A model generated the notes under the pieces. The model did no database searches. It saw only the letters and a list, made by a program, of their open reading frames with translations, and was not told where the DNA came from. From NCBI GenBank assembly GCA_005882045.1, contig VBHO01000182.1, positions 1 through 43,997 on the forward strand: DNA of 43,997 nt, read 5' to 3'. Position numbers and translations under genes: made by a program. The stretch comes from Chloroflexota bacterium (GTDB taxonomy: Bacteria > Chloroflexota > Dormibacteria > CF-121). Shown here in pieces: positions 18,611 through 41,420 of the stretch. How positions within the stretch are numbered: the first letter of the stretch is position 1; each line of letters begins with the position of its first letter.

Positions 18611-20173
18611 ATGCCGTTAGCACTGCAGGCGCTGCTCCCGTTCAGCGCGCTGCTGGGCGCCGCCGCGATCGTGCGACGGCGACCTCGCCGCCGGGGCAAC
18701 GGTTGGATTGCGGCCGGCGCCACCGGGCTCGCCGCGGTCATCGCCCTGGTGGAGCTGCTTCGCCTTTCTCCCGGCGAGCACGTCGACGTTCCCTACCTGA
18801 CCACCTTTCCTTACGCCGATCTCGCGATCCGCCTCGATGGGCTCTCGCTCGCCTTCGCCACGATCACACTGATCACGTCGGCCCTGCTGATGCTCGCGAG
18901 GCAGCGGGTGCGCGGCGACCGCCGGGACCCGTGGGCCGCCTGGTTGCTCACGAGCGCGGCAACCTGCGCCGTGATCTTCGCCGACGACCTCCTTCTGGTC
19001 TACATCGCGCTCCAGCTCCTGACGCTGGCATGGAGCGGCGCGCTCGATGAAGCGTCGCCGCGCCGGCGAGGCCTTCGCCTGGTAGTCCAGGTCGCCGACA
19101 TCGGCCTGCTGCTGGCGGCGGCGAGCGCGATCCAATCGGTGGGAACGAGCGCCTTCTCCGGCGTGCCCTCCGACACCTTCGGGCTGGCGCCGTTTGTGCT
19201 CGTCCTGCTGCCGGTCATGGTCCGGATCGGCGCGCTCACCCACATTTGGGGAGGGCCGAAGGCGGCGGTGTCGTTCGAGCCCGCAATCGCGTGGATTGCC
19301 CCCGCCGGATACCTCCTGCTGCGCTTACTGGCGCTGATGGGCGGGCGACTCCCGGACCGGCCGACCGCGGTTTCGCTGTTCGCCGTGGGCGTGCTCGGCG
19401 CGCTGGTCTTCGTGGGTATGGCGCTCTTCGAGCAGGCCGGACCGCGGGTCGCGGGACTGCTGCTGGCGGCGCAGGCCAGCCTCGCGATCGCGCTCTCGAC
19501 CGGGGACCAACCGTTATTGACGGTAGCCAGCACCTGGTTCTGGCTCCTGCTGGTCCCGCTCGCCGGCCTGGCCGGCATTCACCGCCGCGATGGATCGCCG
19601 CCTGAAGCCCTCACCCTTTTGGGGCTCGCGATGGTTCCCGGGAGCGTCGCCTTCGTGGGACTGTGGCTCGCCGGTTTGGCGCTGAACGCTCGCGGACTGC
19701 TGCTCGCGATGATTCCGGTCGGCCTGGTCGTGGTGCTGGCGGTGATCGCGGCCCTCCGTCACGTGACCGTACGGCGACCCAGCCAGCTCGACGTCGCGAC
19801 CGCCTGGGCGGGGGTGCTCCTGCTGGTCGCCGCCTTTCCCATCATCGCGATCGGCACGCTGGTCGTGCCCGCCGCGGCGACCGTCCGCCTGGTTCCCCGG
19901 GGGATGATCTCGGTCAGCCTCTTCGGGCTCGCCACCGATTTTGGGGCGTGGCCCGCGCTCGCGGTGTCGGTGGTGGTCGGCATCATGGTCGGCCTCGCGG
20001 GCTGGCGCCTCCATGGGCGCCTCCCGTTGCGCGCGCGGGGCGCCGACGGGGGTCTGCGATTTCCATCACTGGTGCCGGTGCGGCCCGGGCGGCCCACATT
20101 GCCGGCCTGGAGTCAATTTGTGCTCTGGGGGGCGTTCGCCGCCGTCGTGGGCGCGGTCGCGGTTCGGCCATGA
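18611..20173 (+). CDS. Polytopic membrane protein, divergent NuoL/NuoM/Mrp antiporter-like subunit
   Basis: 'IRLDGLSLAFATITLITSALLMLARQ...WLLTSAATCAVIFADDLLLVYIALQLLTLAWSGAL' resembles proton-conducting antiporter-like subunits; ~14 hydrophobic segments. Confidence 0.55.
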   Translation: MPLALQALLPFSALLGAAAIVRRRPRRRGNGWIAAGATGLAAVIALVELLRLSPGEHVDVPYLTTFPYADLAIRLDGLSLAFATITLITSALLMLARQRVRGDRRDPWAAWLLTSAATCAVIFADDLLLVYIALQLLTLAWSGALDEASPRRRGLRLVVQVADIGLLLAAASAIQSVGTSAFSGVPSDTFGLAPFVLVLLPVMVRIGALTHIWGGPKAAVSFEPAIAWIAPAGYLLLRLLALMGGRLPDRPTAVSLFAVGVLGALVFVGMALFEQAGPRVAGLLLAAQASLAIALSTGDQPLLTVASTWFWLLLVPLAGLAGIHRRDGSPPEALTLLGLAMVPGSVAFVGLWLAGLALNARGLLLAMIPVGLVVVLAVIAALRHVTVRRPSQLDVATAWAGVLLLVAAFPIIAIGTLVVPAAATVRLVPRGMISVSLFGLATDFGAWPALAVSVVVGIMVGLAGWRLHGRLPLRARGADGGLRFPSLVPVRPGRPTLPAWSQFVLWGAFAAVVGAVAVRP

Positions 20174-21716
20174 TCCTCTACCTGCCGGCGGCCCTGTTCG
20201 CCGTCAGCCTGCTGGCAGCCTATGGCACCGTTGGCCGGCAACGACAGGCGGCGACGATTGGGGCGCTGCTGGCGGCCGCCCGAGTCTCACCGCCTGGGCC
20301 ATCGGTCCCATCGTGGCGACGCTGCTCCTGCCGCGCCATGGCGCGCGCGCCCGCTCGAGCTTCGAGGGGCTGACCCGCCGCGTGATCACGATCGTCGGCG
20401 CGCTGCTGGTCGGGGTTATCCTGGCATCTCGCTTGCCGCTCGGCGAGAACCCCGTCCTGCTCAGCGCCGTGCCCTGGGCCCTCGGCGCTCTGGGCGCGGC
20501 CTGGTTCATCAGTCCCATCGACCAACCCGAGCGGCTGCAAGGCCAGGCGCTGATGGTGGCGGCGACGGCTGCGATCCTCCTGGTCGCGGTCTCAGCGGGG
20601 CCGCTGACGGCGGCGCTGGCCGGGGCGATGGCGCTCACGCCGATCGCGGGCGAGCACTGGCGTCTGCCCGGCCGGTTTCGACCGGCGTTGAGTGCGCTAC
20701 TGCTCCTCCTCGCCGCGGCGGCGGCGCTGCTCGCGGCCGTCGCTCCCGTGAGCGTCGTCCTCGTCCTCTTTGACATCGGGCTGAATGTCAACAGCCTGGT
20801 GCTGCTGGGCGCGGCGATCCTCCTGGTCGCGGGGGCGGCCGCCACCCCGATTGGCATCGAGTGGGCGGCCGCGCTCGGTATCCTGGCCGTCACGGCGGTC
20901 GCGCCTGCTCTACGATGGGCGGCGCTCGCGGGGTTGATCGCGGTTGCCACGACCCTCGATCGGCGTGGCGAACGTGCCGCCTGGCTGGCGGCCGGGGCCC
21001 TCGCGATCACCTCCGTGCTCCCGCCCTTGGCCGCGCCCTCATGGAGTGCTCGGGTGCAGGTGGTCGCGCTCGCCGCCGGCCTGGCCCTGATGCTCTTCGC
21101 GGCCCGCGCGGCGACGCTGCGCGTACTCGTCCTGCCGACGACGGCGCTGGTTGTGATGGTGGCGCTCGCTTCGGTCAACGTCGCGGGACTGGTCCGCTTC
21201 CAGTGGATCGCCGCGGTCGGCGCACTGCTGCTCGTCGCGCGCGCCGCGCTGACCTGGTTGCTTCCGGACACCAGTGGGCGCGAGGTCGTTCGCGACGGCT
21301 TGGTCGCCGCGCTCCTGCTGCTGGCGGTCAGCGCCCGCGACGCCCTCGGTCTCGGCGCGCTCGCGGCGGTGCTGCTCCTGATCGACGTGGCCGTCGTTCG
21401 CATCGATGACGTCCCATCGGCTTCCTCCCGATGGTCGCGGCTGGTCGTGCTGGCACGCTCCAACTGGCCAGCATCGATCACCTTCGCCGCCGCCACCCTC
21501 ACCGTGATCGCCGCCCTCCAGGCGGGGCTGGCGCTCGGTTTGCTCGCGGCGGCCTTGCTCGCGGCGCTGCAGCTGGCGCCGCTTGTTGATCGCCATGCCG
21601 CCCCACCCGCGCCGCTTCGGCCGCGGTCGGCGTTGCGGTGGGTGGGCCCAGCCCTGTCAGTCGGCTGCGGCATCGCCCCGGCCCTCGTGCTGCGGATGAT
21701 CCAACTGGCCCGTTGA
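20170..21716 (+). CDS. Polytopic membrane protein partner; apparent frameshift at about 20275-20285
   Basis: ATGA overlap with the previous gene; N-terminus 'MILYLPAALFAVSLLAAYGTVGRQRQAATIGALLAAA' in frame 1, continuation 'SLTAWAIGPIVATLLLPRHGARARSSFEGL...' in frame 3. Confidence 0.55.
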
Positions 21717-29454: not shown

Positions 29455-29486
29455 TTGACATTGACCCAAGGTCAAGGTTCTAGCCT
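29455..29486 (+). promoter_or_regulatory. Predicted MerR-type promoter/operator
   Basis: -35 TTGACA (29455-29460), 20-bp spacer carrying perfect dyad TTGACC-CAA-GGTCAA (29461-29475), -10 TAGCCT (29481-29486), ATG at 29494. Confidence 0.7.
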
Positions 29487-29493
29487 TTGGCGT

Positions 29494-30453
29494 ATGAACG
29501 TACTGACCAACCACGCGACACGCACCGCGGTTTCCGTTACCGGCTTGCGCAAGGCATACGGGGAGAAGGTCGTCCTCGACGGCGTCGCCCTCACCATCGG
29601 CGAAGGTGAAGTCTTCGCATTGCTGGGGCCGAACGGAGCCGGCAAGACCACGATCGTACGGATACTCTCCACCCTGATCCCGGCGGACGCCGGCACGGCC
29701 ACCGTCATGGGGTTCGACCTCCGCCGCGACGCCGGCGCGGTGCGTGGGGTGATCGGGGTCACGGGGCAGTTCTCCGCAGTCGACGACCTGCTGAGCGGTG
29801 AAGAGAACCTCCTCCTGATGGGGCGCCTGCTGCATCTGCCGGCGGATGGGCGGCGGGCGCGGGCCGTCGAGCTGCTGGAGCGCTTCGACCTCGTCGAGGC
29901 GGCTCGGCAGACGCCGGCCACCTATTCCGGTGGAATGAAGCGGCGCCTCGACCTCGCGATGACCCTGATGGGGAGGCCACGGCTGATCTTCCTCGATGAG
30001 CCCACCACCGGCCTTGACCCACGGAGCCGCCACACCATGTGGCAGATCATCCGCGACCTTGTCGGCGAGGGCGTCACGATCTTGCTGACCACCCAGTACC
30101 TCGAGGAGGCCGACCACCTCGCCGACCGGATCGCTGTGCTGGACCATGGCCGCATCGTCGCGGAGGGCCCGCCGGAGGAGCTGAAGCGGCGCATTCCCGG
30201 TGCGCACTTCCGACTGCGCTTCGCCGATGCCGCTTCGCTCGACAAGGCTGCGCGAGAGCTCCGCGAGGGCACGCGCGAGGACGAAGATCTGGTACTGCGG
30301 GTACCGAACGAGGGTGGGATCCGATCGCTGCGCAACGTGCTCGCCCGCCTCGGCGACGACGTCGCCGTGGAGGACGTGTCCATTCACACACCGGACCTTG
30401 ACGACGTGTTCTTTGCCGTAACCGGCGATGCTTCCAGGGAGAACAACTCATGA
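29494..30453 (+). CDS. ABC transporter ATP-binding protein, DrrA (daunorubicin resistance)-like
   Basis: Walker A 'GPNGAGKTT', 'SGGMKRRLDLAMTLMGRPRLIFLDEPTTGLDPRSR', 'TTQYLEEADHLADRIAVLDHGRIVAEG'. Confidence 0.92.
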   Translation: MNVLTNHATRTAVSVTGLRKAYGEKVVLDGVALTIGEGEVFALLGPNGAGKTTIVRILSTLIPADAGTATVMGFDLRRDAGAVRGVIGVTGQFSAVDDLLSGEENLLLMGRLLHLPADGRRARAVELLERFDLVEAARQTPATYSGGMKRRLDLAMTLMGRPRLIFLDEPTTGLDPRSRHTMWQIIRDLVGEGVTILLTTQYLEEADHLADRIAVLDHGRIVAEGPPEELKRRIPGAHFRLRFADAASLDKAARELREGTREDEDLVLRVPNEGGIRSLRNVLARLGDDVAVEDVSIHTPDLDDVFFAVTGDASRENNS

Positions 30454-31211
30454 CCGGCTTGACCTTCGCCGCCCAGGACTCCGCCACCATGCTGGGGCGG
30501 GAAATCAAGCACAGCATCCGACTCCTCCGGTTGCTGATCGTGAGCGCGATCGTCGTGCCGGTCGTCATGCTGTTGTTGTTCGACTACATCCTCGGTGGGA
30601 CGATCGGCCACGGGCTTGGTGACGCGGCGCGAGGGGCCCCGTATGTCGACTTTCTCGTGCCCGGCATCCTCATCATGGCGGTGGCAGGAAGCTGCGGGCC
30701 TACGGCGATCAACGTCACCATGGACATGACCGGTGGCTTTGTCGACCGGATCCGTACGATGGCCGTCTCTCGCGGTGCTCTCCTGGCCGGACATGTCGGC
30801 GGCAGCCTCCTGCGCATGCTGGTCGCGACCGCCGCGGTGACCGGGGTGGCGCTCCTGGTCGGCTTCAGGCCAACGGCGTCAGTCGCGGACTGGTTCGCCG
30901 TCGTCGGAATCGTCGCGGCGTTCTCGTTTGCGCTGGCATGGTTGTCCGCGGCGATCGGGCTGATGACCAGGAGCGTCGCCGCGGCGAACGGCTTGACCCT
31001 ACCCCTGTCGTTCCTGCTGCCATTCCTGTCCAGCACCTTCGTGCCGACCGCGACGATGCCCGCCGGTGTGCGCTGGTTCGCTGAGCAGCAGCGCTCCTCA
31101 CCGGCGCGCCGGTCGGCAACACCCCTTACGTGGCACTGGCCTGGTGCGCGGCGATCGCGCTGGTCTCCTACCTGTGGGCCCAGGCCGCGTTCCGCCGAGG
31201 TACCCGACTGA
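30450..31211 (+). CDS. ABC transporter permease, DrrB-like; apparent C-terminal frameshift/deletion
   Basis: ABC-2 sequence 'PYVDFLVPGILIMAVAGSCGPTAINVTMDMTGGFVDRIRTMAVSRGALLAGHV'. Past about 31091 the expected end 'ALLTGAPVGNTPYVALAWCAAIALVSYLWAQAAFRRGTRLT*' is in another frame (to 31216). Confidence 0.82.
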   Translation: MTGLTFAAQDSATMLGREIKHSIRLLRLLIVSAIVVPVVMLLLFDYILGGTIGHGLGDAARGAPYVDFLVPGILIMAVAGSCGPTAINVTMDMTGGFVDRIRTMAVSRGALLAGHVGGSLLRMLVATAAVTGVALLVGFRPTASVADWFAVVGIVAAFSFALAWLSAAIGLMTRSVAAANGLTLPLSFLLPFLSSTFVPTATMPAGVRWFAEQQRSSPARRSATPLTWHWPGARRSRWSPTCGPRPRSAEVPD

Positions 31212-31226
31212 CATGATCTAAAGCGC

Positions 31227-31976
31227 ATGATCACCATCGGCCAGCTCGCCGCCTACGCCGGCGTGACGATCAAGGCCGTCCGCCATTACCACAAGCGTGG
31301 CCTGCTCGAGGAGCCGCCGCGTGACGCATCGGGCTACCGGCGGTACACCGCCCAGCATGCCATCGACCTGGTGAAGATCAAAACGCTGGCCGAGGCCGGC
31401 GTGCCGCTGGCTCGCATCAAGGCGCTCTTCGTGGCGCAGCCCGATCAGTTTGGCGCGGCGATGGCCGAGATCGACCGCAACTTGCAGGAGCGGGCGCGGG
31501 AGCTCCGTCGCACCCGCCAGCGGATCGCCCGGCTCAGCGCCGGTGACCGCCTGTTCGTTTCCGCAGCTGTCGCCGACTACCTCGACCGGCTCCGCGAACT
31601 TGGCGTGAGTCAGCGGGGGGTACAGATGGAGCGCGACGGCTGGATCCTGCTCCAGTCAGTCTCGCCGAAGGCGGCCTCCATCTGGTTTGCCGACAAGCTT
31701 CACGCGATCGACGATCCGGAGTTCGTTGCCATCTACCTCGAGTACGACGCGGCGTTCGACAGGTCCCCGGACGACCCGCGCCTCTACGCCCTGGCTGACC
31801 GCGCCCAGCGCTGGATCGCCGGCCAGCCCAGCAGGCTCAAGCGCGCAGAGGGGTCGACACCGGACCCGACCATCGCAAAGCTGGTCGCGACGTCCGTCGG
31901 TATGTCGTCGCCGGCCTGGGACCGGCTAACCGAGATCGGCAAGGAGCGCATGGCGGGCGGCACGTCCAGCCAGTAG
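31227..31976 (+). CDS. MerR-family transcriptional regulator
   Basis: 'MITIGQLAAYAGVTIKAVRHYHKRGLLEEPPRDASGYRRYTAQHAIDLVKIKTLAEAGVPLARIKAL'. Confidence 0.93.
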   Translation: MITIGQLAAYAGVTIKAVRHYHKRGLLEEPPRDASGYRRYTAQHAIDLVKIKTLAEAGVPLARIKALFVAQPDQFGAAMAEIDRNLQERARELRRTRQRIARLSAGDRLFVSAAVADYLDRLRELGVSQRGVQMERDGWILLQSVSPKAASIWFADKLHAIDDPEFVAIYLEYDAAFDRSPDDPRLYALADRAQRWIAGQPSRLKRAEGSTPDPTIAKLVATSVGMSSPAWDRLTEIGKERMAGGTSSQ

Positions 31977-32928: not shown

Positions 32929-33969
32929 CTAGACCAGTCCCGACTCCAGCGTGGTGACCATTTCGGCCAGCGCCCGGACGGCCCAGTTTGGACGCTCGGT
33001 CATGCCAAACAGTTGGAGGCGCGCCTCGGCGAGATGCTCTGCCGCCTGGCGGCGGCAAATCGCCTGCGCGCTGGACTGGGTGATGATGGCGCGGGCGGTC
33101 TCCATCTCGGTGGTCGTGAACCTGGCGCGCGTGAGCAGCGATCGCAGCACACGCCGGTTGCCCGCGGCGCCGCCCTTCAGCGCGACCAGCGTCGGCAGCG
33201 TCTTCTTGCCGTTCTTCAGGTCGCTGCCCATCGGCTTGCCGGTCTGACTGGTCGACCCCCATACGCCGAGGATGTCATCGATCACCTGAAATGCAATCCC
33301 CAGGTGGTAGCCGAACTTGCCCGCTTTGTCCAATGCCGCGTCACCGACGCCCGCGGCCAGGCCACCCAGCCGCGCGGCGCACTCGAAGAGCGCGGCGGTC
33401 TTGAGCCCCACCATCTCCATGTACTCGTCGACCGAGACGTCGACCCGCTGCTCGAACTGCAGGTCGAGCACCTGGCCGCGGCAGAGCGCGAGCATCGACT
33501 CGGTCAGCAATAAGAGCGCCGGCCGCGTGCGCTCCACGTAGCGTGCCGGCAGCAGATCGACCACTGCCCGGGTGACGAGCGCCTCCAGCGCCGCGCCGGC
33601 GTTGATCGCCTGTCCCTGGCCCCAAACCTTCCAGACGGACGGCCGTCCGCGGCGCAGCTCGTCACCGTCCTGGACGTCGTCGAAGACCAGCGAGAAGTTG
33701 TGCGCGAGCTCGACGGCCACCGCCGCCCACAGCGCATCGGCGTAGCGTTTCCCGAACGCCTCGCAGGTGAGCAGCGCGATGTTCGCCCGAAGGCGCTTGC
33801 CGGGGCGCTCGCCCGCTTTCCGCAGGCCGAGGTGGTACTGGACCATCTCGGTCAGCAGCGCGCTCTGGCTGGATCCGACCCGCTGCGAGAGACGCGACAG
33901 CTCGCGGTCCAGGGCCTGGTTCATCGCCTGCAACCGGTCGGTGCGGCTGGCAAAGGTCTTGGTCTTCAT
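32929..33969 (-). CDS. Polyprenyl (probably geranylgeranyl) diphosphate synthase
   Basis: FARM 'HNFSLVFDDVQDGDELRRGRPSVWKVWG', SARM 'FQVIDDILGVWGSTSQTGKPMGSDLKNGKKTLP'; start at ATG 33969. Confidence 0.92.
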   Translation of the reverse strand: MKTKTFASRTDRLQAMNQALDRELSRLSQRVGSSQSALLTEMVQYHLGLRKAGERPGKRLRANIALLTCEAFGKRYADALWAAVAVELAHNFSLVFDDVQDGDELRRGRPSVWKVWGQGQAINAGAALEALVTRAVVDLLPARYVERTRPALLLLTESMLALCRGQVLDLQFEQRVDVSVDEYMEMVGLKTAALFECAARLGGLAAGVGDAALDKAGKFGYHLGIAFQVIDDILGVWGSTSQTGKPMGSDLKNGKKTLPTLVALKGGAAGNRRVLRSLLTRARFTTTEMETARAIITQSSAQAICRRQAAEHLAEARLQLFGMTERPNWAVRALAEMVTTLESGLV

Positions 33970-34017
33970 ACCCCCCACCCCGACCCTCCCCCGCAAGGGG
34001 GGAGGGAGAAAAAGAAA
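33970..34017. repeat. REP-like G/C palindrome, copy 3
   Basis: accccccaccccgaccctcccccgcaaggggggagggagaaaaag, nearly identical to copy 1; abuts the GGPP synthase start codon. Confidence 0.75.
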
Positions 34018-34024
34018 GGTGTTT

Positions 34025-35074
34025 TCATCGGACTTCGACAGGAGGGGTGGTCTTGAGGGCCGCGATGGTGGGAGCGCCCGCACAGAACATGGCGACTCGC
34101 AGCTGCCAGGCGAAGCCCTCGAGCAAGCGCCGCACGGACTCTTCGCCTTCCGAGGCGGCGGCGAGCACGGCGTGGGCGAAGCCGGTCAGGTCCGCGCCGA
34201 GCCCGAGCGCCTTGGCGGCGTCGAGCCCGTGCTTCAGTCCGCCGCTCGCGATCAGCGGTAGGTGGGGAGCGGCGCGGTGGGTCGCGATCAGCGCCTCCGA
34301 CGTGGGGATGCCCCACTCGGAAAAGGCGAGCGCCAGCTCGACTTCCTCGGGACGCTCGCGGCGAAAGGCCTCCACCCGGGCGAAGCTGGTGCCCCCGAGG
34401 CCGGCCACGTCGATGGCGGCCACGCCCGCGTCTGCCAGCAGCGCCGCGGTTCGCTCCGAAATACCGCAGCCAACCTCCTTGACGATCACCGGAACGGGGA
34501 GCTCGCGGCAGAGGGTCCCGATCTTGTCGATCAGCCCCCGGAAGTTGTGGTCGCCTTCGGGCTGGAGCGCCTCCTGCAGCGGATTGAGATGCAGCACCAG
34601 CGCGTCCGCGCCGATCATCTCGATCGCTTCCAGGGCCTGCTCCCGACGCATGCCGTAGTTCAGCTGGACCGCGCCCAGGTTGGCGAACAGCAGGACATCG
34701 GGGGCGACGCTGCGCACCTGGTAGGTGGCGCGCAGGTCCTTGTGCGTGATCCCCGCCCGCTGCGAGCCGACGCCGAAGGCGATCCCGACCGATTGCGCGA
34801 CCAGCGCCAGGCGGCGGTTGATGTCGCCGGCGGCGTGGGCGCCACCGGTCATGCTCGAGATCAGGAACGGCAGCTTGAGGGGTTTGCCCAGGAAGCTGGT
34901 CGTCATGTCGATCGCGTCGAGGTCAAGCTCGGGAAGCGCTTCGTGGCTGAAGGCGTAGCGCTCGAAGCCGGCGCTGCGTGTGGACTGCACCGAGGCTTCC
35001 AGTGACAGGCGCAGGTGCTCGAGCTTGCGCTGGGCGATCTTTGAAAGCGGGTGCCCGTTGGCGTCGAGGGCCAT
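34025..35074 (-). CDS. fni: Isopentenyl-diphosphate delta-isomerase, type 2 (FMN-dependent)
   Basis: 'RKLEHLRLSLEASVQ', 'FLGKPLKLPFLISSMTGG', 'GSQRAG', 'LHLNPLQEALQPEGDHNFRG', 'VPVIVKEVGCGIS'. Confidence 0.94.
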   Translation of the reverse strand: MALDANGHPLSKIAQRKLEHLRLSLEASVQSTRSAGFERYAFSHEALPELDLDAIDMTTSFLGKPLKLPFLISSMTGGAHAAGDINRRLALVAQSVGIAFGVGSQRAGITHKDLRATYQVRSVAPDVLLFANLGAVQLNYGMRREQALEAIEMIGADALVLHLNPLQEALQPEGDHNFRGLIDKIGTLCRELPVPVIVKEVGCGISERTAALLADAGVAAIDVAGLGGTSFARVEAFRRERPEEVELALAFSEWGIPTSEALIATHRAAPHLPLIASGGLKHGLDAAKALGLGADLTGFAHAVLAAASEGEESVRRLLEGFAWQLRVAMFCAGAPTIAALKTTPPVEVR

Positions 35075-35077
35075 GAC

Positions 35078-37501
35078 CTAACCCGCCGCCGCCACATCGG
35101 GCGGAGTTGGGTGTTCGTCGTGCACGTCGGCCTCGAGGGCATCCGGGTTTTCCGCCTGGCGCTTGCGCATCATCTGGATGAAGTAGTCGACGATGATCGG
35201 GTCGAACTGCGTGCCCTTACCCGCCTCGAGCTGGGCGAGCGCGAACTCCGGCGTGCGCCGCTGCCGGTAAGGCCGGGTCGACGTCATCGCGTGGTAGGCG
35301 TCGCAGACCGACACGATGCGCGCGTGCAAGGGGATGTTCTGGCCCGCGAGCCCGTCCGGGTAGCCGCTGCCGTCGTACCACTCGTGATGGTGCAGCACGA
35401 CGTTGAGGATTTGCCGGAAGGCCTTGATCGGCTGCAGGATGCGCGCCCCCAAGATGGGGTGCATACGCATGATCAGTTTCTCGTCTTCATCGAGCTTGCC
35501 TTCCTTGAGCAGCACTTTGTCGACCACGCCGATCTTGCCCACGTCGTGGAGGATCGCGGCCAGACGCAGCTGGTTCTTGTGCGCCGGCGACAGCTGCAGC
35601 ATGTCGCCCAGGTCTTCGGCGAGCTTGGCGACCGACTGCGAATGGCCACTGGTGTACGGGTCCTTGGCGTCGATCGAAGCCGCTAGCGCGTTGAGGGCTT
35701 CCAGCGTCGCTTCGCTGTTGGGCGACAGCATGCCCTCGGCGAGCTCTTCCAGGTGGCTCGAGTTGGCGATCTGGCCGAGGCGCTTTTCGAGGGTCGCCAC
35801 CATTCCCGGTCCGACCGTGTCGGCGCTCGCCAGCTGGGCGACGACCTCGCTCAAAACCGAGTCGAGCGCGGCGACGCTCTCCAGCTCGCAGGCGCCGCAG
35901 ATGCAGTTGCGGCCGCGCTTCTTCGCCATGTACATGGCAAGGTCGGCGCGGTTCAGGAGCTCGTCGCGGTTCTTGGCGTCGACGGGATAGGTCGCCCAGC
36001 CAACCGACGCGGTCAGCGGCGCGAAGATGGTCTTCGGGTTGTACATGAAGACTTTCGCCAACGTGTCGCAGATTTCCTGGGCGCGGATGGGCGCCGTCTG
36101 AATGTCGACCCCGGGGAGAATGGCGACGAACTCCTCGCCGCCGTATCGGGTGACCGTGTCCTCGCGGCGCATCGTCGACGAGATGGTGCGCGCCGCCGCC
36201 TTGAGCGCGACGTCACCGGCGGCGTGGCCGAAGCTGTCGTTGTAGACCTTGAACCGGTCGAGGTCGATCATCATCACCGTGATCGACCCGCCCGTCTCCT
36301 TGGTTTTCTCGAGCTCCTCGTCGAACCTGGTGTGGAAATAGCGGTGGTTGGGCAGCCCGGTCACCGAGTCGGTGACGGAGAGTTTCTGTGCCTGGTCGAG
36401 GGCATGCGCATTGCGCATCGCGATGCCGGCGCGTTCGGCGAAGGTCAGCATCAGCTCCTGCTCGGTTTGGCGCAGTGGCTCGACGCGGTTCTGGAAGCCG
36501 ATGATCATATCCGCGATCGCCCGCGCCCCGTGGAAGACCGGGACACGGTACCAGAGCCCGGCCGGCAACGGCTTGGGGTTGTCGGGCAGCACGATGTTCG
36601 GGTCGCTGAGCGGGATGACCTGCTCGCCCATCGCCGGCGTCAGCGACAGCCGCGCGCCGGTCATGTCGACGCCCGCGTACTGCGTCTTGAGCTCGGGGCT
36701 CCAGTCGATGTACAGCGTCGAGGCGGCGGGCGCGGACTCATCCTGACCGATCAGGGGCGGCATCTGGACCTGGAGCAAGAAGGCATCCGCGTTGAGCAGC
36801 GCCCGGCCTTTCTCGGCGGCGAGCAGGCAGGTCTGCTCGAACTCGAGGTCGCGGTTGAGCTCGACGGTCACCTCGGACAACGAGGCGTGCGCCCGTTCCA
36901 ACTCCTCCTCCAGCGCTCGCTCCGCTCGCCGGGCGCGGTCGCCGACGAAGCCGACGAAGATGCCGGTGATGGCGACGAAGCCGGTACGCATCGCCAGGTT
37001 GGTAAGCGCGCTCAGCGCCAGGGAGGTGCCCGCGACCGTGTTGTCGTAGTAGACGACGGCCGTGTAGCTGAGGGCGATGGTGAGGACGGCGACGATGGCG
37101 GCCAGACCGCCGAATCGCACCGCCGTCGTGACCGTCACCACGAAATAGGCGAGAAAGAAGGGCGACTCCAGGCCGCCGGTGACCGCCACGCCGCCGGTCA
37201 CGAGCAGGGTGTCGCCGATGGCCGAGATGTAGCCGCTGGTCAGCCATCCGGGTTTACGCGGAAGGATGATGACGAGCAACGTCAGGTTGTAGATCGCGCC
37301 CAGGCCGATCAAAGCCAGCAAGGTCACGAGCGATTGATGGCTCAAGCTCGATGACAGGAAAGGAAGGGCGCCCAGGGAGACGAGAATCGCGAGCCAGCGA
37401 ACCCAGATGATGCGGCGCTCCATCTCCATCGCCGAGGCGTCCGGCTTCCCGGCCTGTGCCGGCTTGCGTGCACCCAGCTTGAGGTTGATGGCGCTGCTCA
37501 T
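35078..37501 (-). CDS. Membrane-bound GAF-GGDEF-HD-GYP bifunctional c-di-GMP enzyme
   Basis: N-terminal ~5-6 TM; GGDEF 'RREDTVTRYGGEEFVAIL' with RxxD I-site; HD-GYP 'LAAILHDVGKIGVVDKVLLKEG...HHHEWYDGSGYPDGLAGQNIP'. Confidence 0.92.
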   Translation of the reverse strand: MSSAINLKLGARKPAQAGKPDASAMEMERRIIWVRWLAILVSLGALPFLSSSLSHQSLVTLLALIGLGAIYNLTLLVIILPRKPGWLTSGYISAIGDTLLVTGGVAVTGGLESPFFLAYFVVTVTTAVRFGGLAAIVAVLTIALSYTAVVYYDNTVAGTSLALSALTNLAMRTGFVAITGIFVGFVGDRARRAERALEEELERAHASLSEVTVELNRDLEFEQTCLLAAEKGRALLNADAFLLQVQMPPLIGQDESAPAASTLYIDWSPELKTQYAGVDMTGARLSLTPAMGEQVIPLSDPNIVLPDNPKPLPAGLWYRVPVFHGARAIADMIIGFQNRVEPLRQTEQELMLTFAERAGIAMRNAHALDQAQKLSVTDSVTGLPNHRYFHTRFDEELEKTKETGGSITVMMIDLDRFKVYNDSFGHAAGDVALKAAARTISSTMRREDTVTRYGGEEFVAILPGVDIQTAPIRAQEICDTLAKVFMYNPKTIFAPLTASVGWATYPVDAKNRDELLNRADLAMYMAKKRGRNCICGACELESVAALDSVLSEVVAQLASADTVGPGMVATLEKRLGQIANSSHLEELAEGMLSPNSEATLEALNALAASIDAKDPYTSGHSQSVAKLAEDLGDMLQLSPAHKNQLRLAAILHDVGKIGVVDKVLLKEGKLDEDEKLIMRMHPILGARILQPIKAFRQILNVVLHHHEWYDGSGYPDGLAGQNIPLHARIVSVCDAYHAMTSTRPYRQRRTPEFALAQLEAGKGTQFDPIIVDYFIQMMRKRQAENPDALEADVHDEHPTPPDVAAAG

Positions 37502-37510
37502 GGTTTCGAC

Positions 37511-38419
37511 TCAGCCCGCCCTCAGCAGGCGATCCGAGCGGGGCTTGGCACGCGGGACTTCGTAGAAGTCGAGGAGCACCTGGGTGCTGTCGACCAGGTG
37601 GCTCAAGAATTGCTGGGTGATGCCGGTGCGACGCTCGCGGGCAATCGCCTTCTTGAGCTGTTCGAACTCCTCCTCCATTAGATGATGTACGGCGACGCGC
37701 GCGCTCTCGAGCGTGCGCTCGCCTGGCGCGCCGAAGATCAGGTCCACCGAGTTGAATCGCCCCTGCGCCGCCTCGCGCTCGTGCGTGCGCAGGTCGTTCG
37801 CCAGCCGCACCACGCGCGAGGCCTGGCAGATGTGGCCGAAGATTCGGTTCTTGAGCTCTTGCGAGACATCCTGGTAGGAAAAGGCAAGGATCGACACCTG
37901 GACGATCGGGAAGGAGCTGCTGTACATGCCATTCGCCAGGTAGGCGTCAAGGGTGACGCGCTCCTTGTGCTTGAGCCAGTGGTTCTCCTGGAGCATGGTC
38001 CAGATCGACTTCTCCCAGACCAGCCGTCGCATCGCGGTCCATTCTTCGGGGACTTCGTCCTCGCGGAACTGCTCCTCGATCTTGCGTGTGACCGTGGCGT
38101 TGACGAGGGGCATCTGGCTGAGGTCGCGGTTGGGCCAGAGCAGAAAGTTCTGGCACACGCGCCGGTAATCGGCAAGGTCGAGCTCGGGATGTTCTTCTTC
38201 CAGGTAGTCGTCGATGTAGACGATGTAGGCCATGGTGCGGGCCAGCGTCAGCGCCTGCTCGAAGCTGGCACTGGGGTGGAGGAGGACGGCGGCGCGGCAG
38301 ACCTCACCCAGCATGTCGTCGCCACGCGGGTTGGCATCGACGAGATGGCGGATGACCGCGCCCTCGTCACCCTGCGCCAGCAGGTTCTCCTTGAGCTTAT
38401 TAATGCGCCGATCTAGCAT
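37511..38419 (-). CDS. Class I terpene synthase-like protein (diterpene synthase candidate)
   Basis: 'YIVYIDDYLEEEH' (DDxxE motif at 38198-38212) and 'LANDLRTHEREAAQG' matching NSE/DTE consensus (37772-37798); ATG 38419. Confidence 0.82.
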   Translation of the reverse strand: MLDRRINKLKENLLAQGDEGAVIRHLVDANPRGDDMLGEVCRAAVLLHPSASFEQALTLARTMAYIVYIDDYLEEEHPELDLADYRRVCQNFLLWPNRDLSQMPLVNATVTRKIEEQFREDEVPEEWTAMRRLVWEKSIWTMLQENHWLKHKERVTLDAYLANGMYSSSFPIVQVSILAFSYQDVSQELKNRIFGHICQASRVVRLANDLRTHEREAAQGRFNSVDLIFGAPGERTLESARVAVHHLMEEEFEQLKKAIARERRTGITQQFLSHLVDSTQVLLDFYEVPRAKPRSDRLLRAG

Positions 38420-39908
38420 GTTCGCTCCTCGCCAGCAGGATTCGCGCGGAAAGGACCGCCGACCGGACAACCTGGGTTGGCCCGTAGAGCGTCTTGCCGA
38501 CCCACATAGGAATGACGGGCTCTCCCTCGGTTTCATTCAGGTAGGCGGCAGCCCGGTTCAGCTGCTCCTTCAGGCCCGCCCGGAACTCGGCCGGCGCGAG
38601 CATCAGGGCCTGAACCGCGTAGGCGGTTTCTTCCGGGGTCCCGCCTGAGAACCATCCCCAGGAGCCGTCCTTTCGCTGGCTATCGCGCAACCAGCTAAAC
38701 GCCTGCACGCAGGCGTCGGGTGCCGACGCGGTGAGCGCGAAGACGGCGTGGGCGGTGGCATAGAAGGGGGAACCATGCCACTTGTCGACCCAATGGTCGC
38801 CGTCTACGCGCGCATCACGCAGGTACTTGACGACTTTCTGCGCGATCACATACTGGCGAGGGAAGGGCGGCACGACCTGGAGCACCTCCAGGACGTGGGC
38901 ATTCGCGGTGACGGAGGCATCCCGCTCGAGCGGGAAGGTAAAGAAGAAGTTCACGCCCTCGAACGGCCGCAGGGGGCCGGCCGAGATCGGATACCCGTAG
39001 CGGTGCAGGACGCTGAGCGTGAGGGCGGTGTCGTCGGCATCCGCCCGAAGGCCCTCCCGCGAGACGCCGACCCCGTCGTCGGTGAGGGACTGGGCGAGGT
39101 AGCGCAACAGCGGCGACGATTCGGCGGGCCGGTGGTCGGCCCGGGCCAGGTTGTAGAGCACCCAGGCGATCTCGAAGACTTCAAAGGGCGCGACTGTCGG
39201 AATGCTGCCATCACCGCGGTTGCGGAGCAGCAGGGCGAGGTACTCGTTGGCCTGCTCGTCGCGGGTCTTGAGCAGGAAATACGCCGTCGCCGACGGCGAG
39301 TTGGCAAACGAGCCGTTGGGGGAGAGCTGGGCCCGGGCGGCCTCGACGTCGAGCCGGTTGCCCAGGTATTCCAGCGAGTGCAGCAAGGGCGTCTTGACGT
39401 TGTAGATGAGCCGCGGCGGGATGTGGCCGATCTTCGCGTCGCGCTGGGCGGAGATCCCCATGAAGCGCTCGAAGGGGAGGGGGAGTCCGCGGACCTTGGC
39501 CTCATCGAGCAAGGCGGGGAGGACGAGTTCGAAGCCGGCCATGTCGGGGCCGGTCTGCCAGTTGCCGGTGTCCTCGTAGAGGAAGCGCAGTGCCTTGGTC
39601 CGCGCCCGGTGGACGACTCCATCCTGGAGGTTTTGCGGCAGGTCGGCGAGCGCCACCAGGGCGCTCAGGGTGGAGACCAGCTTGTCTTTTGGAATCGGCA
39701 GGGTCGTACCGAAGCTGCCGTCGGCGTTCTGGCTGCGCAGGAGCCAGGCGAGCGTCTGGGGATAGGCCAGCGCGTTGGGATCGTCGGGCTGGCGCAGGCG
39801 GGCGACGAAAGCCGTGTCATAGGCGGCGGCGGAGATCGCTCCCTGCTGGAGCGACGCGAGCAGCTCGCGGGTGGCCGCCGGGAGGGGCATTGCCGGCTGC
39901 GGCAGCAC
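38400..39908 (-). CDS. Class II diterpene cyclase-like protein (copalyl/kolavenyl/halimadienyl diphosphate synthase-type)
   Basis: DxDD motif 'LRADADDTAL' (39030-39041); repeats 'LLRSQNADGSFG' and 'SQRKDGSWGWFSGGTPEETAYAVQAL'; overlaps the class I gene by 20 nt; start GTG 39908 or ATG 39890. Confidence 0.87.
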   Translation of the reverse strand: MLPQPAMPLPAATRELLASLQQGAISAAAYDTAFVARLRQPDDPNALAYPQTLAWLLRSQNADGSFGTTLPIPKDKLVSTLSALVALADLPQNLQDGVVHRARTKALRFLYEDTGNWQTGPDMAGFELVLPALLDEAKVRGLPLPFERFMGISAQRDAKIGHIPPRLIYNVKTPLLHSLEYLGNRLDVEAARAQLSPNGSFANSPSATAYFLLKTRDEQANEYLALLLRNRGDGSIPTVAPFEVFEIAWVLYNLARADHRPAESSPLLRYLAQSLTDDGVGVSREGLRADADDTALTLSVLHRYGYPISAGPLRPFEGVNFFFTFPLERDASVTANAHVLEVLQVVPPFPRQYVIAQKVVKYLRDARVDGDHWVDKWHGSPFYATAHAVFALTASAPDACVQAFSWLRDSQRKDGSWGWFSGGTPEETAYAVQALMLAPAEFRAGLKEQLNRAAAYLNETEGEPVIPMWVGKTLYGPTQVVRSAVLSARILLARSEHARSAH

Positions 39909-40160
39909 TTCCCGGATCGCGGAGTGAACGTCGTTGATTTCCGTAGTCGCGACCCCCTTGGATGGCGCTAGATCGAGCGTCTAGGGGGAGGCTACTGCCG
40001 TCCTATTGCGGGAGACGTTTCGGCTGCGCACCGGGTTGTCAGGCTGGCGCGCGTCACGGACGCGTCGTATTCGTCACAGGCCAATGACCCGGGAAAGTGG
40101 CCGCGGTCCGAGGCGTTGTCACGATACGGGCCTACGGGACGAGCCCGGAAAGAGGGACGG

Positions 40161-41420
40161 GTGTTTCGGCCGAGGGTGTTATCGGGCGGGCTGGACCGGC
40201 GCGCCAGCACCATGGTGCTGGTTCATGGCGCCTATACGGCGGCCAACCTGCTGGCCGGGGCGTTCCTCTCGATCTTTCTCTGGCGGGCCAGCCACGACCT
40301 GGTGCCGATCGCCCTCTACAGCGGCTTGAGCGCGCTCATGATTCCCGCCGCCTTCGTCGCCAACGGGTTGATCTGGCGGGGGATGGGTGCGGGTGCCTCG
40401 ATCCGGCTGGGCCTCTTCGGCGGCGGCTTCTCCTACCTGGTGATCCTGATGCTGGGAAACGACGCCCCGCACTGGGTCGTGGTCCTGGGCCTCCTCCGAG
40501 GTGTCGCCGAAGGCTTTTACTGGTCGGGCTTTCACCTGGTCACGTACGACACGACGTCAGACCGGGACCGCGACCGATACTTCGGCGCCCAGGCCACGGC
40601 GAGCCTGTTCCTGACCGCCACCCTCCCGCCGGCGGCGGGCGCGATCATCGTGGCGGGCGCCCGCGTGGGTGGGACCTACCGTGGCTATCAATTGGTCTTT
40701 GCCCTGTCTGCCGTGGTCCTGATGGCCGCCATGGTGCTGGCCGGTCAGCTGCCGTCCTCCGCGCGCCAGCGCCTATCGCTTCGCCGGGTCGCCACCCTGG
40801 CGCGGCGTAATCCGGACTGGCGCTGGGTGACCCGAGCCCGGCTGGCCGATGGCTTCACCGGTAGCTTGATCGGGCTGGTGCTGACGATTCTGATGTTCCT
40901 CGTGCTGAAGAACGAGCAGCAGGTGGGCAACTTCAACGGCTTGATGGGCCTGCTGGGTGTCGGCATCAGCCTGGGGCTGGCCGCCTTCATGAAGCCCAAG
41001 CACCGGATCGCGTGCGCCCTCGTCGGCGGCGCGCTGCTGGTGCTCTCCACCTTCTTATTGCCGCTCTACCTTTCGGCCTGGGCGATCGTCGGCTTCGGCT
41101 TGCTGCGCGCGATCGGTGGCCCACTCCATGGCAACGCGCTGGCGCCGGTGGCGTTGCAGGTGATCGACCGGGATCCGGCGCCGAAGGTCATGCGCTACGA
41201 CTACATCGTCCACCAGGAGCTGTGCCTGGGGATCGGGCGGGTGGTGAGCATCGGCTGCTTCCTGCTGCTTGCCGCCCCCATGAACCAGATGCTGCTCGCC
41301 CGCATCGTCGTCGTCGTCGCGGGGGCTGCCCCGCTCCTGATCTGGGCCGCCTTCGCCCGCATCCCGGGCGTCGCGCCCCTCGCGCAGCCCGACACGCGGG
41401 CGCTGCCGGCCGCCGCTTAG
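40161..41420 (+). CDS. MFS transporter
   Basis: About 12 hydrophobic segments: 'GLLRGVAEGFYWSGFHLVTYDTTSDRDRDRYFGAQATA', 'IVGFGLLRAIGGPLHGNALAP'; GTG 40161 preferred. Confidence 0.75.
   Translation: MFRPRVLSGGLDRRASTMVLVHGAYTAANLLAGAFLSIFLWRASHDLVPIALYSGLSALMIPAAFVANGLIWRGMGAGASIRLGLFGGGFSYLVILMLGNDAPHWVVVLGLLRGVAEGFYWSGFHLVTYDTTSDRDRDRYFGAQATASLFLTATLPPAAGAIIVAGARVGGTYRGYQLVFALSAVVLMAAMVLAGQLPSSARQRLSLRRVATLARRNPDWRWVTRARLADGFTGSLIGLVLTILMFLVLKNEQQVGNFNGLMGLLGVGISLGLAAFMKPKHRIACALVGGALLVLSTFLLPLYLSAWAIVGFGLLRAIGGPLHGNALAPVALQVIDRDPAPKVMRYDYIVHQELCLGIGRVVSIGCFLLLAAPMNQMLLARIVVVVAGAAPLLIWAAFARIPGVAPLAQPDTRALPAAA

Follow-up and report, generated by a model that had tools for sequence, protein, structure and literature searches.

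Introduction

Bacterial class II diterpene cyclases are described with a partner enzyme in the tuberculosinol pathway (Rv3377c/Rv3378c), in the kolavelool cluster of Chloroflexota (Haur_2145/2146) and in the rhizobial gibberellin operon. The biosynthetic neighbours of 964 bacterial type II synthases have been surveyed, in a paper whose main text says nothing of adjacent kinases, regulators or signalling (PMC9814783). A different kind of operon is the rpfF-rpfC-rpfG layout of the diffusible signal factor (DSF) system, which comprises a signal synthase, a membrane sensor and an HD-GYP output (PMC5391125). Here, we describe a contig of a Chloroflexota bacterium (VBHO01000182.1, 43,997 nucleotides; hereafter the window, that is, the whole 44-kb contig, from the 3.2-Mb, 91% complete assembly GCA_005882045.1) in which a diterpene operon encloses a gene for a membrane protein with GGDEF and HD-GYP domains. 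We tentatively propose that the product of this operon is a diterpenoid coupled to cyclic di-GMP (c-di-GMP) in a DSF-like layout. The enzymes belong to known kinds, while a diterpene pathway coupled to a membrane c-di-GMP enzyme, a combination that recurs across phyla, is, to our knowledge, new; our literature search, lying outside subscription papers and preprints, returned no paper linking diterpene cyclases with sensor kinases or c-di-GMP.

A diterpene operon with an embedded GGDEF/HD-GYP gene

Six genes occupy the minus strand from 39908 to 32101, with overlaps or short gaps between neighbours, in the order class II cyclase, class I synthase, GGDEF/HD-GYP protein, type 2 isopentenyl diphosphate (IPP) isomerase, polyprenyl synthase and GDSL hydrolase. 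The operon and its surroundings contain the following features.

38400-39908, minus strand: class II diterpene cyclase, 502 aa; DxDD motif D290/D292/D293, LHS His177, DxxxxE D122-E127; phmmer match to 6vpt (Rv3377c; PMC9814783), residues 14-493
37511-38419, minus strand: class I terpene synthase, 302 aa, start most likely ATG 38419; D70D71xxE, N208D209xxT212xxxE216; AlphaFold model with pLDDT 82; best Foldseek matches Sat1646 and LrdC
35078-37501, minus strand: membrane sensor-GGDEF-HD-GYP protein, 807 aa; profile matches and conserved position
36827-37441, minus strand: type A sensor domain of that protein, residues 21-225, a helical membrane domain, distantly RegB/PrrB/ActS-like
35906-36376, minus strand: GGDEF domain, intact GGEEF and RxxD I-site
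35198-35683, minus strand: HD-GYP domain, intact HD and HHExxDGSGYP motifs
34025-35074, minus strand: type 2 IPP isomerase, 349 aa; TIGR02151, 407.9 bits (cut-off 281.3)
32929-33969, minus strand: polyprenyl (probably geranylgeranyl diphosphate, GGPP) synthase, 346 aa, start most likely ATG 33969 rather than GTG 34083; polyprenyl synthetase PF00348
32101-32865, minus strand: GDSL hydrolase, 254 aa, with which the conserved unit ends
39909-40115, no strand: intergenic region between the divergent genes, with blocks conserved among same-genus relatives; probably a shared promoter region
40116-41420, plus strand: divergent major facilitator superfamily (MFS) transporter, conserved family neighbour and exporter candidate, start uncertain; Pfam MFS_1 at threshold only

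An initial annotation of this sequence had recognised the four terpenoid enzymes as a compact one-strand set leading from IPP and dimethylallyl diphosphate to GGPP, a bicyclic diphosphate and a diterpene, with no adjacent P450. Our results bear out all four assignments and also the tight packing, the cyclase and class I genes overlapping by 20 bp, with 9 bp between the class I gene and the gene for the 807-aa protein and 3 bp between the latter and the isomerase gene. The set is nevertheless split between the class I and isomerase genes by the GGDEF/HD-GYP gene, which had been overlooked and which takes up a third of the stretch 32929-39908, and the conserved unit reaches further than proposed, to the GDSL hydrolase and the divergent MFS gene. 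No P450, ferredoxin or short-chain dehydrogenase/reductase tailoring gene was found in the operon. The predicted pathway appears complete, with good support from sequence, fold and conservation.

The cyclase matches bacterial and plant class II diterpene cyclases over its full length, with 6vpt as best solved relative (223 bits, E 5e-65). The matches to squalene-hopene cyclases were weak (23-34 bits) and limited to the C-terminal half, ruling out a triterpene cyclase or hopanoid reading. All three aspartates of the DxDD acid motif are invariant across 10 family members. With this motif and the full-length match, the protein has the sequence features of bacterial class II diterpene cyclases, and cyclisation of GGPP is predicted. 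His177, at the LHS position, is also invariant, and the Asn position varies within the family (T, N, V, D, M). Because of this variation, and because Tpn2 has the His yet is a clerodane synthase (PMC9814783), prediction of the product from the LHS/PNV positions was dropped and we name no product.

The class I protein is remote in sequence, matching Terpene_syn_C_2 (E 3e-16) and, weakly, plant synthases; BLAST gave no match to it in plasmid records, including the rhizobial genes in the kaurene-synthase position. Both motifs read by the initial annotation, DDYLE and NDLRTHERE, are present, and among 17 homologues from several phyla D70, N208 and D209 are invariant and D71 and E216 nearly so. The N-terminal 100 residues are unlike terpene synthases by sequence, and the fold was settled by the AlphaFold model, which has a class I terpene synthase fold and matches class I synthases at a TM of about 0.7-0.78 in Foldseek. 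The best match (E 8e-7), Sat1646, is by entry title a class I pimarane-type diterpene synthase, and (E)-biformene synthase LrdC, labdane-type by product name, was near the top of the list. Judged from the model, the cyclase partner in the window is a canonical class I alpha-fold synthase.

The genome has the methylerythritol phosphate (MEP) pathway (IspG) and one other polyprenyl synthase elsewhere, so the isomerase and prenyl synthase of the operon look dedicated to it. Gene context and family resemblance indicate that this synthase probably makes the C20 product GGPP. The 807-aa protein has an N-terminal membrane domain followed by GGDEF and HD-GYP domains, with all catalytic signatures intact and an RxxD inhibitory site, and is predicted to make and break c-di-GMP. 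A c-di-GMP riboswitch or other Rfam element was not found near the operon, the window having three tRNAs only.

Conservation of the operon in its family

The cyclase is present in all 14 other genomes of the genus and in the 3 other genomes of the family that were examined, and none was seen in 43 genomes belonging to other families of this class, where only weak matches resembling squalene cyclases turned up. The 18 family genomes span 4 genera, all (18/18) have the type 2 IPP isomerase and, as far as their contigs extend, share one gene order, namely a divergent MFS gene and then the genes for cyclase, class I synthase, GGDEF/HD-GYP protein, isomerase, prenyl synthase and GDSL hydrolase; some copies in draft genomes are broken by frameshifts or contig ends. 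The unit is flanked by obg/nadD/PucR-like genes and ftsH. The initial annotation had suggested searching related genomes for the same gene order, and since this order is kept in relatives down to 62% cyclase identity, it is more than chance. The named relatives are Chloroflexi metagenome-assembled genomes (MAGs) labelled CF_, from one soil depth series that we take to be the Angelo grassland soil genomes. The host is a soil bacterium of an uncultured Chloroflexota family.

Next to the conserved unit, a DrrA/DrrB-like ABC exporter and a MerR-type regulator (29455-31976, plus strand) lie between the PucR-like and GDSL genes. As these two genes directly adjoin in nine relatives with the junction on the contig, the block appears to have been inserted, in the window's genome alone among those compared.

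Class II cyclases lie beside signalling genes in several phyla

We gathered class II loci by cyclase similarity alone, namely 80 named loci and 32 loci outside the window's family from 400 sampled Chloroflexota genomes, the two sets overlapping in part. Neighbouring genes were annotated by profile searches and the cyclases clustered at 60% identity, giving 46 clusters. Kinase, receiver, GGDEF, EAL and HD-GYP genes were counted as signalling genes, and genes further out in the same loci served as a flank-based background. In 27 of the 46 clusters, a same-strand signalling gene lay no more than three genes away, and in 22 it was immediately adjacent, against 2 of 215 genes in the background, with the proviso that gene calls were crude and clusters are not fully independent. 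Even if 5% of the genes in a genome are taken to be signalling genes, the binomial probability is 4e-17 for adjacent genes and 3e-12 for those within three, and it is very unlikely that the linkage arose by chance. In the Chloroflexota sample, 25 of the 32 cyclase loci had a signalling gene.

The arrangements differ between lineages. Bacillota MAGs (L095, L131, L132) have a cyclase, a sensor-GGDEF-HD-GYP protein and a prenyl synthase; in Rubrobacter, the cyclase is followed by a GGDEF-EAL gene (L097, from the cultured species Rubrobacter marinus) or has a sensor-GGDEF-HD-GYP gene downstream (L110). Two other genomes (G094, G223) carry cyclase, class I synthase, membrane sensor kinase and receiver-HD-GYP genes, and further Chloroflexota (L098, L099) have class I synthase, cyclase, receiver, sensor kinase and GGDEF-EAL. 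In Anaerolineae, a cis-prenyltransferase-like enzyme and the cyclase stand with a PAS kinase bearing another membrane domain and a receiver, and Herpetosiphon-like genomes (L187-L190), which we infer to be Herpetosiphon, have hybrid kinase, receiver, cyclase and cis-prenyltransferase-like genes. Outputs therefore vary (GGDEF-HD-GYP, GGDEF-EAL, histidine kinase with receiver or with receiver-HD-GYP) while the terpene enzymes are constant. Most of these outputs are c-di-GMP turnover enzymes or phosphorelay proteins without a DNA-binding domain, which suit signal reception better than plain gene regulation. The presence of signalling genes beside terpene genes in several phyla points to the terpene being a signal or being closely bound up with one.

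Several loci showed further features. A cis-prenyltransferase-like gene in G379 (L193 2104-4184) has FemAB/GNAT upstream and a kinase with the sensor that we call type B plus a receiver downstream, with no cyclase between. In G070 (L202 914-4485), cis-prenyltransferase-like, B12-binding radical SAM and type B sensor genes lie in a row, and the genome has seven type B matches. Anaerolineae cyclase clusters (L101 7444-9986) have upstream GNAT-like and ICMT-like (isoprenylcysteine methyltransferase family) genes that may tailor the product. On a Thaumarchaeota-labelled contig, which could be misbinned, the genes after the cyclase (L107) encode a PEP-utilising mobile-domain protein and a 375-aa protein of unknown kind. 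In the window itself, two long open reading frames on opposite strands (18611-20173 and 20204-21673; 520 and 489 aa) have no Pfam match.

Co-inheritance of cyclase and sensor

Within the 400 Chloroflexota genomes, every type A sensor match better than 1e-30 was in a cyclase-carrying genome, the best in a genome without cyclase being 8e-26. Since the sensor model was trained on cyclase-linked members, which favours matches of that kind, we built a tree with background homologues. There, the window's family groups with cyclase-linked Bacillota proteins (96/90), and placing the window sensor together with the free-standing sensor-GGDEF-HD-GYP proteins found in its own class was rejected (approximately unbiased test, AU p 4e-7). 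On the cyclase tree, which does not resolve the window's family next to Bacillota, the system types map with 12 changes versus 29.5 in shuffles, a figure that near-copies help. The cyclase thus tends to move together with its signalling gene.

A proposed diterpenoid sensed by the adjacent protein

In the mechanism that we propose, the isomerase and prenyl synthase would supply GGPP, the class II enzyme would protonate and cyclise it to a labdane-type or related bicyclic diphosphate, and the class I enzyme would ionise this intermediate and turn it into a diterpene hydrocarbon or alcohol, which the GDSL enzyme and the MFS protein may modify and export. The membrane sensor domain would sense this lipophilic product, or a condition that the product reflects, and set c-di-GMP synthesis against hydrolysis. 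The working would then be DSF-like, with signal synthase, membrane receptor and HD-GYP output, receptor and output being fused in one protein. By analogy, we favour a diterpenoid sensed by the adjacent protein, as signal or monitored metabolite, because synthases and membrane sensor are constant and the output varies, as in the rpfF-rpfC-rpfG layout. With still more caution, we extend this proposal to a widespread system of Chloroflexota, Bacillota and Rubrobacter, a terpenoid counterpart of DSF in which a diterpene synthase pair would make the ligand of a membrane receptor from the same operon, with c-di-GMP or phosphorelay output.

The main alternative, which we regard as doubtful but well worth weighing, is that the sensor reads quinone redox state, oxygen or membrane state as RegB does, and decides through c-di-GMP or phosphorelay on production of a defensive or protective diterpenoid. 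The type A sensor domain has no Pfam model above threshold, and Foldseek of its model returned nothing usable (best E 1.1); 9 of 15 type A members match NF033792 (ActS/PrrB/RegB), a distant relationship in which the window's domain scores 25.9 bits against the family model, far below the cut-off of 350. The known ligand of RegB is ubiquinone, its quinone motif being GGxxNPF (PMC8191878), and regulators next to biosynthetic genes are common. Such a redox role agrees less well with outputs that are mostly c-di-GMP enzymes and stand-alone receivers rather than transcription factors, and with a linkage that holds while sensor type and output type change.

Some observations weigh against a sensed diterpenoid. 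The GGxxSPF of the window's sensor, which resembles the RegB motif, is also carried by homologues without cyclase; the motif therefore does not discriminate between a signal and a redox cue, and we dropped it as a sign of diterpene sensing. The Anaerolineae sensor is unrelated to type A (hhalign probability 1.5%), so that no single receptor fold goes with the cyclase, and one sensor fold shared by all loci is ruled out. A single clade of cyclase-linked sensors was neither shown nor rejected (p 0.395). Four genomes with type B kinases gave no cyclase match, so that this sensor, at least, needs none; G379 is one of the four, and its kinase still adjoins a cis-prenyltransferase-like gene. Finally, no signalling gene was found at rhizobial cyclase loci, at most actinobacterial ones, including those of Streptomyces, or at five f15 loci.

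It is unlikely, in our view, that the diterpenoid is a membrane lipid or building block (hopanoid-like, or a prenylated head group) and that the sensor monitors membrane composition. The unit is chromosomal, present in every family genome seen and placed among housekeeping genes (obg, nadD, ftsH) instead of in a mobile cluster, it includes a GDSL hydrolase, and GNAT/FemAB and ICMT-like genes adjoin the cyclase or cis-prenyltransferase gene in Anaerolineae, all of which would suit a lipid; yet a class I enzyme would be expected to yield an unattached hydrocarbon or alcohol, and the window operon has no lipid-attachment gene. An ordinary diterpene pathway with the GGDEF/HD-GYP gene as chance passenger is highly improbable, for although sister families of the same class (f3; L211-L221, L227) have stand-alone type A sensor-GGDEF-HD-GYP homologues without cyclase, these belong to a different clade by the AU test above, the two aligned (L211, L214) have degenerate HD-GYP motifs, and in Chloroflexota, Bacillota and Rubrobacter alike signalling genes adjoin cyclases much more often than the background would give.

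The reason why free-living bacteria make diterpenes is largely open, and the link between cyclase and c-di-GMP sensor offers a concrete function, as signal or sensed metabolite. Were it a signal, the diterpenoid would add a new chemical class to the bacterial autoinducers, one for which a receptor could be named at once, in parallel with plant diterpenoid hormones. It would, further, point to a role for many cyclase genes that are at present recorded simply as biosynthetic clusters, and for this uncultured family from soil.

Comparison with known systems

The initial annotation had cited Rv3377c/Rv3378c and Haur_2145/2146 as precedents, which proved half right: cis-prenyltransferase-like partners of the Rv3378c/Haur_2146 type do adjoin other Chloroflexota cyclases, but only in other loci, the partner in the window being of the Terpene_syn_C_2 kind. 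Rv3377c is the closest solved relative of the cyclase over its whole length; it lacks the LHS His in the alignment, unlike the window cyclase, and its pathway differs both in partner type and in the c-di-GMP enzyme embedded in the window. Haur_2145/2146 is likewise a Chloroflexota class II pair, and Herpetosiphon-like loci also lie beside kinase and receiver genes, but the cyclase belongs to another clade, the partner type differs and no fused c-di-GMP enzyme is found there. The rhizobial gibberellin operon (CPS, KS, IDI, GGPPS, P450s; L049) shares the core order cyclase, class I synthase, isomerase, plus the GGPP synthase, but has P450s and an oxidoreductase, no signalling gene, and class I sequences without BLAST match to that of the window. 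Membership of the gibberellin or tuberculosinol pathway is ruled out by the lack of P450s and by the partner type.

On the signalling side, the likeness to the RegB/PrrB/ActS redox kinases is confined to a distant membrane sensor similarity (GGxxSPF in the window, GGxxNPF in RegB), and the window output is GGDEF/HD-GYP and not a kinase. In common with the DSF system, the window has a membrane sensor and an HD-GYP output next to the synthases, here joined in one protein; the likeness is closest in L160 and L161, where histidine kinase and receiver-HD-GYP are separate, and the G094 and G223 loci match the rpfF-rpfC-rpfG layout directly. The DSF system differs in having RpfF, of the crotonase family, in place of a terpene cyclase pair, and the window sensor is RegB-like by sequence. 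By analogy, the window system may function as DSF does without belonging to it.

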